Below are positions 5,458 through 7,979 of a stretch of DNA of 64,000 nucleotides, piece by piece. Position 1 is the stretch's first letter. Each line of letters starts with the position of its first letter. The stretch comes from Haloglomus salinum (GTDB lineage Archaea > Halobacteriota > Halobacteria > Halobacteriales > Haloarculaceae): positions 3,038,001 through 3,102,000 of the forward strand of contig NZ_CP101153.1 of assembly GCF_024298825.1 (NCBI RefSeq). The letters are read 5' to 3'. The notes below the pieces were generated by a model. The model saw only the letters and a program-made list of their open reading frames with translations. It did no database searches and was not told where the DNA came from. Position numbers and translations under genes: made by a program.

Positions 5458-5775
5458 ATGGAGTTCTGTGACGAGTGTGGGTCGATGATGCACACGGAGG
5501 GTGAAACCTGGGTGTGCCGGTCCTGTGGCCACGAGCAGTCGCGTGACGAGTCGAGCGACGCGGCGGCGACGACCAGCGAGGCCCAGCAGGAGGACGGGGG
5601 GCCGGACGTGGTCGACGCGACCGGCGGGACCGGGGAGGCCGTGCGGGAACCCTGCCCGGCAGACGGATGCGACAGCGAGCGGGCCCGCTACGAGATGCTG
5701 CCGAAACCCGGCGGGTCCTACGAAGTCCGGCTGTTCACCTGCGCCGAGTGTGGTCACAAGTGGCGCGAATCCTGA
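5458..5775 (+). CDS. TFS-like RNA polymerase factor lacking the catalytic acidic pair
   Basis: A 105-residue homologue of archaeal transcription factor S, the TFIIS/RPB9-like protein that enters the polymerase secondary channel and stimulates transcript cleavage. The N-terminal Zn ribbon has Cys4, Cys7, Cys20 and Cys23. The C-terminal ribbon has Cys66, Cys71, Cys95 and Cys98, with an unusual Cx4C first pair (CPADGC). The loop that should hold the Asp-Glu cleavage pair reads PKPGGSYEV at residues 82-90, so the pair is missing. It is a tandem duplicate of the next gene. It may be an inactive or inhibitory paralogue, as described for Sulfolobus TFS4; that is inference. Confidence 0.88.
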   Translation: MEFCDECGSMMHTEGETWVCRSCGHEQSRDESSDAAATTSEAQQEDGGPDVVDATGGTGEAVREPCPADGCDSERARYEMLPKPGGSYEVRLFTCAECGHKWRES

Positions 5776-5841: not shown

Positions 5842-6168
5842 ATGGAGTTCTGCGACGAGTGCGGTTCGATGATGCACACGGAGGGCGGCGAGTGGGTCTG
5901 CAAGTCCTGCGGCGCCACGAAGCCCCGCGACAGTGCCAGGGACGCGGCGATGACCACGACCGAGGGACAGGACACCGACAGTGGCCCCGTCGACATGTCG
6001 GAGGTCGACGACGAGGAGATCGGGCCGACGACGAAGGTGGTCTGTCCGGAGTGTGGCCACGACCGCGCTCGCTACGAGATGAAGCAGATCCGGGCCGCCG
6101 ACGAGTCCGAGACGCGCTTCTTCACCTGCACCGAATGCGGGAAGAAGTGGCGCGAGGACGACCACTGA
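5842..6168 (+). CDS. tfs: Transcription factor S (TFS)
   Basis: A 108-residue archaeal TFIIS-like cleavage factor with two Zn ribbons: Cys4, Cys7, Cys20 and Cys23, then Cys68, Cys71, Cys96 and Cys99. The C-terminal ribbon keeps the acidic pair Asp87-Glu88 in RAADESETRFF. This pair promotes hydrolysis of backtracked RNA in the polymerase active site. This copy is therefore the canonical functional one, in contrast to its upstream neighbour. The N-terminal 14 residues of the two are identical, while the linkers have diverged. It has its own promoter 33 bases upstream. It is a known essential-class archaeal factor. Confidence 0.93.
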   Translation: MEFCDECGSMMHTEGGEWVCKSCGATKPRDSARDAAMTTTEGQDTDSGPVDMSEVDDEEIGPTTKVVCPECGHDRARYEMKQIRAADESETRFFTCTECGKKWREDDH

Positions 6169-6234: not shown

Positions 6235-6240
6235 TTTTAG
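6235..6240 (+). promoter_or_regulatory. TATA-like box upstream of the Cys leader and cysE
   Basis: TTTTAG is centred near 6237. Transcription would begin near 6262-6265, only a few bases before the leader-peptide ATG at 6269, making that small frame the first translated unit of the cysE transcript. Confidence 0.55.
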
Positions 6241-6268: not shown

Positions 6269-6352
6269 ATGGGCAGCACGCGCCTCCCGCGTCGACCCCG
6301 CAACGTCCGCCAGCCCGCGGTCCGCGCGGCGCCGTGCTGTTGTTGTTGTTGA
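6269..6352 (+). CDS. Poly-cysteine leader peptide upstream of cysE
   Basis: A 27-codon frame that starts with ATG at 6269 and ends with TGC TGT TGT TGT TGT TGA, that is Pro-Cys-Cys-Cys-Cys-Cys-stop. The preceding residues are Arg/Pro-rich ([12 protein letters not shown]), unlike the acidic proteins of this genome. It lies just after a TATA-like box and 73 bases before cysE on the same strand. Five Cys codons immediately before a stop, ahead of the committed cysteine-biosynthesis gene, is the arrangement expected of a ribosome-stalling leader that senses charged tRNA-Cys. Poly-Cys leaders with that role are known in mycobacteria. Expression and function here are inference, but the frame and codons are seen directly. 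Confidence 0.7.
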
Positions 6353-6425
6353 CTCTTCTGTCCGCCTCTCCCCGGTGCCGCCGCGTCGTACCACCCGCCG
6401 ATTACGCCACTCCCACACTCACCAC

Positions 6426-7019
6426 ATGCTCGACCACGTTCGCGAGGACATCCGTACCGCCCGCGAGACCGACCCTGCAGCCACCAGCACCGTCGAGGTC
6501 CTGCTCTATCCCGGCCTGCATGCCGTCTGGTGTCACCGACTGGCCCACGCGCTCCATGCCCGGGGACACCCGTTCGCCGCTCGCCTGCTCTCACAGCTCG
6601 TCCGACTGTTCACCGGCGTCGAGATCCACCCTGCGGCCGACATCGGCCGTCGGTTCTTCATCGACCACGGCATGGGCGTCGTCGTCGGTGAGACGGCCGC
6701 TATCGGCGACGACGTGACCTGTTACCACGGCGTCACGCTGGGCGGTGACTCGCCGCGGCGCGAGAAGCGCCACCCCACCGTCGAGGACGGCGTCACGCTG
6801 GGCGCGAACGCGACGCTCATCGGCGATATCGCCATCGGACAGGGAGCCACCGTGGGTGCCGGCGCGGTCGTCTCGAAGGACGTGCCTGCCGGTGCAACCG
6901 TCGCAGGGAACCCCGCTCGCCGGATCGACGCTGGAGACAGCGTCGACGCCGACGAGTCCGCCGAGAGCGACGAACTGACGGTCTGTGGCCCCGACTGTCC
7001 CGCGGAGCCGGCCGACTGA
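6426..7019 (+). CDS. cysE: Serine O-acetyltransferase
   Basis: A 197-residue enzyme that acetylates L-serine with acetyl-CoA to O-acetylserine, the first step of cysteine synthesis. A short helical N-terminal part leads into a left-handed parallel beta helix of hexapeptide repeats (residues about 65-175). The catalytic Asp-His dyad is Asp80-His81 in [12 protein letters not shown], followed by the CYHGVTLGG turn. It is of the short class, lacking the long N-terminal domain of E. coli CysE. The C-terminal tail is acidic with two Cys (VCGPDCP). The ATG at 6426 is 73 bases after the stop of the Cys-rich leader, and no clear Shine-Dalgarno sequence is visible. Confidence 0.93.
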
Positions 7020-7040: not shown

Positions 7041-7439
7041 TCAGCAACAGAACATGAACGGGAACATCAGCGCGACGCGGTCCCCGTCGTCGAGTTCGGT
7101 ATCGAACCCGTCCAGATGCTCGTTGAACGCCCCGTTGACGACGACACGGACGTAGGGACGGGTCTGCTCGCCCTCGGGGTTCTTCGCCCAGTCGCCCGGG
7201 AGGTCATCGACATCGACCCAGCCCTCCGTACTGGCCTCGGCCTCGGTTTCCGCGACGAGCATCTCCTGCAGTTCGGGATGCTCGGCGAACAGCGCGTCGA
7301 GGAACTCGCGGAGCGTCTCTCCCTCGAAGGTGTAGTCGAAGCGGTGCTCGCCGAGTTCACGCCGGACGTGGCCGGTCGCCTTCACGTCGACCGTGGTCGT
7401 CACCGCCTGTTCGCTCGATGCGTCGGTGGTCGTGCTCAT
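7041..7439 (-). CDS. MoaD/ThiS-like beta-grasp protein ending in Cys-Cys
   Basis: A 132-residue protein with a MoaD/ThiS (beta-grasp) core. It starts with TTTVDVKATGHVRREL, continues with YTFEGETLREFLDALFAEHP and RPYVRVVVNGAF, and ends LDDGDRVALMFPFMFCC. Classical sulfur carriers and SAMPs end in Gly-Gly, whereas this protein ends in Cys-Cys. The ATG at 7439 is preferred over one seven codons earlier. Its stop faces the cysE stop across 21 bases, and a paralogue lies upstream. A sulfur-carrier or metal-related role is plausible but unproven. The missing diglycine argues against ordinary E1-dependent thiocarboxylation. Confidence 0.82.
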   Translation of the reverse strand: MSTTTDASSEQAVTTTVDVKATGHVRRELGEHRFDYTFEGETLREFLDALFAEHPELQEMLVAETEAEASTEGWVDVDDLPGDWAKNPEGEQTRPYVRVVVNGAFNEHLDGFDTELDDGDRVALMFPFMFCC

Positions 7440-7574
7440 GACGGACCGTTCCGGCGGCATCCGCCTGTAGATACCCCCGAATATGTTCGGGTGGTGGCGC
7501 TGGTAGCGATTCGCGGTGCTGGCGGCCGAGAACGGGCGCGAGAAACAGCGGAAGCAGCACGCCAGCGGCGTGCC

Positions 7575-7979
7575 TCAGTAGGTCAGCGGTTCGACCAGCT
7601 CGATGCGGTCGCCGTCGGACAGTTCGGCCTCGGCGCCGCCGCGGTACTCGTTGAACGTGCCGTTGACCATCACGCGGACGAACGGTCGTTTGCCCGCCCC
7701 GAGGTCGTCCCGGATGTCGGTCCAGCCGGCGTCGTCCTCATGGCGCGTCTCGCCGATGAGGAGGTCGGCCAGCTCCGGCCGTTCGCCGAGGAGCGCCCCG
7801 ACGAACTCGCGGAGCGTGTCCCCCTCGAAGGTGAACTCGAAGCGGTTCTCATCGAACTGTCGCCGGAACCGGCCACACGCGCGGACATCGACGGTCGTCG
7901 TCTGCGCCGTGGTCGTCCCTTCGGCCGGTGCCTCCGCACCGGGCGGTGTGTCGGTGAGGCCTGTGGCGTTGGGGGTCAT
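7575..7979 (-). CDS. MoaD/ThiS-like beta-grasp protein without diglycine
   Basis: A 134-residue paralogue of the neighbouring ThiS-like protein. It has the same order of elements (TTTVDVRACGRFRRQF, FTFEGDTLREFVGALL, RPFVRVMVNGTF, LSDGDRIELVEPLTY) and ends Leu-Thr-Tyr, with neither Gly-Gly nor Cys-Cys. The N-terminal 35 residues are Thr/Pro/Ala-rich and variable. The two genes lie 135 bases apart on the same strand, which suggests duplication and divergence of tails. Its biochemical role is unknown. It would need C-terminal processing, or act without conjugation, if it were a sulfur carrier. Confidence 0.82.
   Translation of the reverse strand: MTPNATGLTDTPPGAEAPAEGTTTAQTTTVDVRACGRFRRQFDENRFEFTFEGDTLREFVGALLGERPELADLLIGETRHEDDAGWTDIRDDLGAGKRPFVRVMVNGTFNEYRGGAEAELSDGDRIELVEPLTY

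Follow-up and report, generated by a model that had tools for sequence, protein, structure and literature searches.

A conserved leaderless-type polycysteine reading frame upstream of haloarchaeal cysE as a candidate cysteine-codon control element

Introduction

Sensing of amino acids through a translated leader open reading frame is textbook knowledge for bacteria. The bacterial trp, his and leu leaders rely on alternative hairpins and an intrinsic terminator, and in tnaC-type control a ribosome held at the leader stop codon bars a termination factor. The closest described system to the one considered here are the polycysteine leaderless sORF attenuators of mycobacteria, first noted in PMC4633059 and characterized by Canestrari et al. 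2020 (as described in PMC9094748 and PMC9031893). Mycobacterial leaderless small frames may end upstream of the next start or overlap it, and coupled cases occur as well (PMC4633059).

Leaderless transcripts account for 72% of the protein-coding ones in Haloferax volcanii (PMC4983044). The portions of the 2016 Haloferax transcription start site study that were available list 16 small ORFs in long leaders and do not mention amino-acid sensing. Our literature search, with most subscription papers being outside its scope, yielded no archaeal leader peptide and no precedent for a cysE upstream reading frame (uORF). The factor FttA (aCPSF1) favors U-rich RNA at a distance of 30-36 nt behind the RNA 3' end; that FttA and the ribosome sterically exclude each other has been published as a hypothesis, which the same paper calls untested (PMC11616081).

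Here we analyze the region upstream of cysE in a stretch of 64,000 nt of Haloglomus salinum (contig NZ_CP101153.1, positions 3,038,001 to 3,102,000, forward strand), hereinafter the window. The preliminary description of this region had likened it to the mycobacterial poly-Cys leaders, and the analogy is apt: the structural features of the mycobacterial type, that is, a short leaderless first frame (predicted), a conserved C-terminal Cys cluster in an otherwise variable frame, and a cysteine or sulfur gene, here cysE, immediately downstream, are all present. Unlike the mycobacterial system, the haloarchaeal leader comes with an archaeal promoter, ribosome and terminators, has no conserved hairpin but a pyrimidine tract after the stop codon, and has a single target gene (cysE), with the cluster fixed at codons 21-26. 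We assume that the two arose by convergence, mycobacteria being another group rich in leaderless mRNAs; no sequence homology is claimed, and none that could be aligned is expected beyond the Cys runs. As in the trp, his and leu attenuators, a run of end-product codons is placed just before a biosynthetic gene, whereas alternative hairpins and an intrinsic terminator were not found in the haloarchaeal leaders.

Results and discussion

The cysE leader in the window

Direct reading of the sequence confirms the layout given in the preliminary description: a 27-codon frame with five Cys codons and TGA at its end, a TATA-like box ahead of it, and cysE on the same strand (Table 1). The frame begins with ATG GGC AGC and ends with CCG TGC TGT TGT TGT TGT TGA, the TTTA of the box begins 33 nt 5' of the ATG, and the spacer between the frame stop and cysE is exactly 73 nt. 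The downstream gene is identified as cysE by its match to TIGR01172 (223.9 bits, with the curated cut-off of 210.65).

Table 1. Features of the cysE leader region, in window coordinates
Feature	Position	Strand	Remarks
TATA-like element TTTTA, promoter predicted to place the transcription start at or adjoining the uORF ATG	6235..6239	+	spacing as in family loci
Leaderless-type uORF, 27 codons	6269..6352	+	comparable frames in 116/165 cysE loci
Cys codons 23-27 (TGC TGT TGT TGT TGT), proposed sensor	6335..6349	+	Cys peak at codons 21-26
uORF stop TGA	6350..6352	+	TGA in 65/73 class A loci
Pyrimidine-rich tract CTCTTCTGTCCGCCTCTCCCC, directly 3' of the stop, putative conditional termination signal	6353..6373	+	
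C/A-rich, SD-less region immediately 5' of the cysE start	6406..6425	+	
cysE, serine O-acetyltransferase, 197 aa, proposed regulated gene	6426..7019	+	TIGR01172

The neighboring genes deserve a brief mention. Upstream of the leader there are tandem genes for transcription factor S-like proteins on the same strand (5458-5775 and 5842-6168). The second, at 74.7 bits, exceeds the TFS_arch cut-off; the first, at 43.7 bits, falls below it, and its C-terminus has no TFIIS zinc-ribbon match. Adjoining cysE on the opposite strand are genes for two ThiS/SAMP1-like proteins (7041-7460 and 7575-7979), whose C-termini, ...FPFMFCC and ...VEPLTY, lack the Gly-Gly with which a ubiquitin-like modifier or a sulfur carrier is expected to end.

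Four consecutive TGY codons followed by a stop occur at two sites in the 4.19 Mb genome, both strands being scanned, and at the second site these codons are read as Leu in its ORF. The pattern TTTA-(23-29)-ATG-(36-66)-TGY x3 has four matches in the genome and none in the control, with an in-frame Cys run only at cysE. A looser TTTW-ATG-TGYTGY scan of the genome revealed no further Cys leader, with 21 matches compared to 26 for the control. None of the cysteine synthase-like genes of this genome has a Cys uORF, and the pattern scans of the genome found none on any other cysteine gene. A similar scan for Trp-Trp uORFs returned mostly GTGGTGG-type matches.

Conservation among haloarchaeal cysE loci

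We compared 165 cysE upstream regions, 90 from the family of the window and the other 75 from the rest of the order, a uORF being defined as an ATG frame of 15-75 codons with a TATA-like element 27-35 nt ahead of it. The loci are taken to be haloarchaeal in view of the GC-rich genome, the promoters of haloarchaeal type, and the neighboring genes for transcription factor S and SAMP1-like proteins. Such a frame precedes cysE in 116 of the 165 loci. It contains Cys within codons 19-29 in 113/116 cases and at least two Cys in 99/116; the latter span 33 genera and 6 families, these tallies of genera being the safer measure, as the genomes are related and the counts are not independent. The preliminary description had considered the chance of a Cys run in front of this very gene to be low, and had made its interpretation depend on conservation of the run upstream of related cysE genes. 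The low chance is borne out by the rarity of the run in the genome and by its conservation, and the latter comparison speaks strongly for the interpretation: since the Cys5 leader has counterparts in other genera and families, it is not a chance product.

The Cys codons follow the phase of the uORF. Among the first 150 loci, 282 of 3508 codons are Cys when read in the uORF phase, compared to 76/3405 and 83/3405 in the other two phases, and the respective numbers of Cys-Cys frames are 68, 0 and 1. In the same set, the Cys peak is sharp at codons 21-26 (31 genera), codon 23 being Cys in 56/103 frames, and at least two Cys fall in a 5-codon window in 86% of uORFs vs 3.9% of shuffles.

Two further comparisons did not involve the uORF definition given above. 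When promoters were disregarded, a Cys-clustered ATG frame was found in 101/165 haloarchaeal vs 2/80 bacterial cysE loci, the latter being a control set subjected to the same test. A pattern scan for TTTA, ATG, CCC and TGA over 242 genomes, made without any information about cysE, gave nine matches; two of them are in-frame leaderless CCC-stop frames, both located before cysE, and one of these belongs to a family in which cysE-based sampling had shown none by then.

Some members retain a single Cys, so that the natural range is from five codons to one, and a recognized Cys uORF is absent from 52/165 loci; therefore cysE can manage without the leader. All uORF counts are lower bounds, because the leader of L286 was missed by the TATA filter. 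This locus, the third member from genus g34, has ATGGTCGTC...ACGTGTTGTTGCTGA upstream of cysE, with a CCC-stop end.

The promoter geometry is uniform. Among the family loci of the first pass (n = 62), the last TTTW begins 28-34 nt before the uORF ATG in 60/62, and alignment by the ATG reveals a T-rich segment spanning -31 to -28; position -1 is a pyrimidine in 56/62. Both the spacing and the -1 pyrimidine are as in leaderless haloarchaeal genes, and the uORF is thus predicted to be the leaderless first frame of the mRNA. A TATA-like box of cysE's own is present in 1/73 class A and 0/40 class B loci (the classes are described below) vs 17/52 loci without a Cys uORF. Being nearly devoid of such a box in the uORF loci, cysE appears to depend there on the leader promoter, while one third of the loci lacking a Cys uORF seem, by sequence, to possess a separate leaderless promoter for cysE.

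Two architectures of the leader

The leaders fall into two classes, differing in where the frame ends. Class A, the type of the window, comprises 69 loci of the same family and two confirmed ones in another family; among the automatic assignments to this class, L200 and L192 probably do not belong to it. Here the Cys run ends the frame (0 or 1 codon after the last Cys in 61/73), and the stop mostly lies 48-104 nt upstream of cysE. An SD-like sequence precedes cysE in 1/73, and C and A constitute 78% of the last 20 nt before cysE (72 class A-type loci). A TTCTC/TTTTC-type motif is found within 28 nt after the stop in 50/69 class A loci vs 7.3% of shuffles, the motif being short and defined post hoc after inspection. 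In genus g15 of the same family (L108, L111, L115, L117), the spacer contains a strong hairpin, GGCCGTCGCT...AGTGACGGCC, after an CTCTTTTC tract directly 3' of the uORF stop. This hairpin is genus-specific, the other genera being without it.

Class B comprises 40 loci from four other families. The frame runs on past the Cys cluster, out of phase with cysE, the cluster itself occupying the same codons as in class A (median 22.5 vs 24.0). In all 40 loci the frame stops 0, 1, 4, 8, 14 or 20 nt into cysE, vs 64% of shuffles, and an SD-like sequence precedes cysE in 23/40. In family f5, all eight loci (L181, L191, L187, L202, L178, L183, L213, L284) have the uORF stop at +8, formed via T at base 6 of cysE; the overlap there reads ATGCTTGA, ATGTTTGA or ATGTTTAG, so that the stop is retained while the encoded amino acids vary, as does the type of stop codon. 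A CGT codon yields the +20 stop in 16/16 class B loci, which is partly circular, and since the group is defined by that very stop, we do not rely on this observation.

Proposed mechanism and alternatives

Judging from the sequence comparisons, the haloarchaeal cysE leader is very probably a functional cysteine-codon control element. We are also fairly confident that it acts in cis as a cysteine sensor, where the position of the ribosome would set cysE expression, and it is likely to raise cysE upon cysteine shortage. This direction (on when Cys-tRNA is scarce) is deduced from end-product logic, since a sensor of the end product of a biosynthetic gene is expected to work in this way.

Translation of the frame, its response to cysteine and both downstream steps would, as we infer, proceed as follows. 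Transcription would begin at the uORF ATG, and ribosomes would load onto the leaderless 5' end. With ample charged tRNA-Cys, the ribosome would pass the Cys codons and be released; with scarce charged tRNA-Cys, it would pause at them, approximately 65-80 nt from the 5' end. Pausing (low cysteine) would lead to higher, and full translation (high cysteine) to lower expression of cysE. In class A, where the Cys run is the last part to be translated, a paused ribosome would cover the pyrimidine-rich tract directly after the stop, and RNA polymerase would be spared termination by FttA (aCPSF1), while a released ribosome would leave the tract exposed. In class B, an unpaused ribosome would run into the cysE start and block it, and a paused one would leave the start free and keep later ribosomes away from it.

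Factor-dependent termination is preferred for class A because of the pyrimidine-rich tract after the stop and the lack of a conserved hairpin, and by analogy with other archaea the factor may be FttA, though we suggest it tentatively. As in tnaC-type control, the class A ribosome at the leader end would shield a factor-dependent termination signal, but the stall would be caused by the lack of Cys-tRNA and not by a ligand, with FttA in place of Rho as the presumed factor. Considered jointly, these elements could form the first archaeal ribosome-mediated attenuator sensing an amino acid: in place of a hairpin switch, ribosome position on a leaderless poly-Cys uORF would gate premature termination by FttA (aCPSF1), the site being a pyrimidine tract, and in the sister architecture found among related families the same sensor codons would gate the cysE start. 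Such a composite reading is rather doubtful as a whole. Natural model loci are lacking for the coupling of transcription with translation in archaea and for how it relates to FttA termination, and a leader present in 33 genera, with its natural variants (five to one Cys, two architectures, absences), makes the question directly testable by simple reporters.

Among the alternatives is translational control via the RNA fold, by which a paused ribosome would open a structure hiding the cysE start, a mode known from many bacterial leaders. In 100 leaders (69 of class A and 31 of class B), no excess of folding over dinucleotide shuffles was observed (mean z of +0.5 for A and 0.0 for B; -0.24 for the class A spacer), and an Rfam search of the leader gave no match. 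Masking the leader segment expected to lie under a paused ribosome slightly raises the predicted accessibility of the class A cysE start, from 0.55 to 0.62 (p = 3e-5), as this explanation would have it, but with the masked part shuffled the accessibility is nearly equal (p = 0.08), indicating no specific hiding of the start. Clear hairpins after the stop do exist in some genera, but they vary from genus to genus. We consider this alternative unlikely. A hairpin-based transcription attenuator was rejected on the same grounds: no excess structure, a weak masking result, no conserved hairpin and no Rfam family.

Even less probable is translational coupling, by which ribosomes finishing the uORF would reinitiate at cysE and the Cys codons would meter their delivery, with more CysE at high cysteine. 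The positions of class B stops relative to the cysE start and the SD-like sequences in more than half of these loci agree with it, and overlaps do drive reinitiation in Haloferax (PMC10666635). Still, coupling in Haloferax volcanii is almost lost at a spacing of about 20 nt (PMC10666635), making reinitiation unlikely in class A, and the predicted direction is contrary to end-product control. Overlap or near contact of stop and start, a feature of termination-reinitiation pairs, is seen only in class B loci, which belong to other families, and not in the window with its 73 nt. Thus, the known Haloferax coupling (PMC10666635, PMC6728339) resembles class B in the overlap with the cysE start, but it would not work over a spacing as long as that of class A, and the expected direction of control is opposite.

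Codon run versus peptide

Within genera, non-Cys codons of the uORF differ at positions 1, 2 and 3 by 0.19, 0.21 and 0.23, respectively, showing no coding constraint. For codons in which at least one partner has Cys, the values are 0.27, 0.07 and 0.11, the contrast being somewhat inflated, as these codons were picked for Cys in one partner. Cys codons are constrained at positions 2 and 3, and the difference at position 1 reflects the TGY-CGY (Cys-Arg) exchange. The within-genus codon comparison gave no sign of purifying selection on the amino-acid sequence of the uORF: all that is retained is the Cys cluster, in its phase and at its distance from the start. As the rest of the peptide is unconstrained, the uORF is a regulatory codon run and not a small protein, and short haloarchaeal leader frames can be functional despite having no conserved peptide sequence.

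It is accordingly very improbable that the frame codes for a small Cys-rich protein with a function of its own, binding metals or thiols and located ahead of cysE by coincidence. Cys clusters can bind metals, and haloarchaea have many zinc-binding small proteins, but the constraint is confined to the Cys codons, the peptide is wholly different between genera and architectures, and the class B tails are unrelated and of varying length; a functional small protein is rejected for this lack of coding constraint. Equally improbable is a TGY repeat acting as a protein-binding motif in DNA or RNA rather than as codons, since, although GCTGTTGTTGA-like strings recur, the clusters are essentially always in the phase of the uORF ATG, their third positions are T or C, and the Cys-Arg interruptions vary between genera. 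In class A uORFs, Cys is mostly swapped for Arg (TGY to CGY), giving ends such as CCRC, CRC and CCR.
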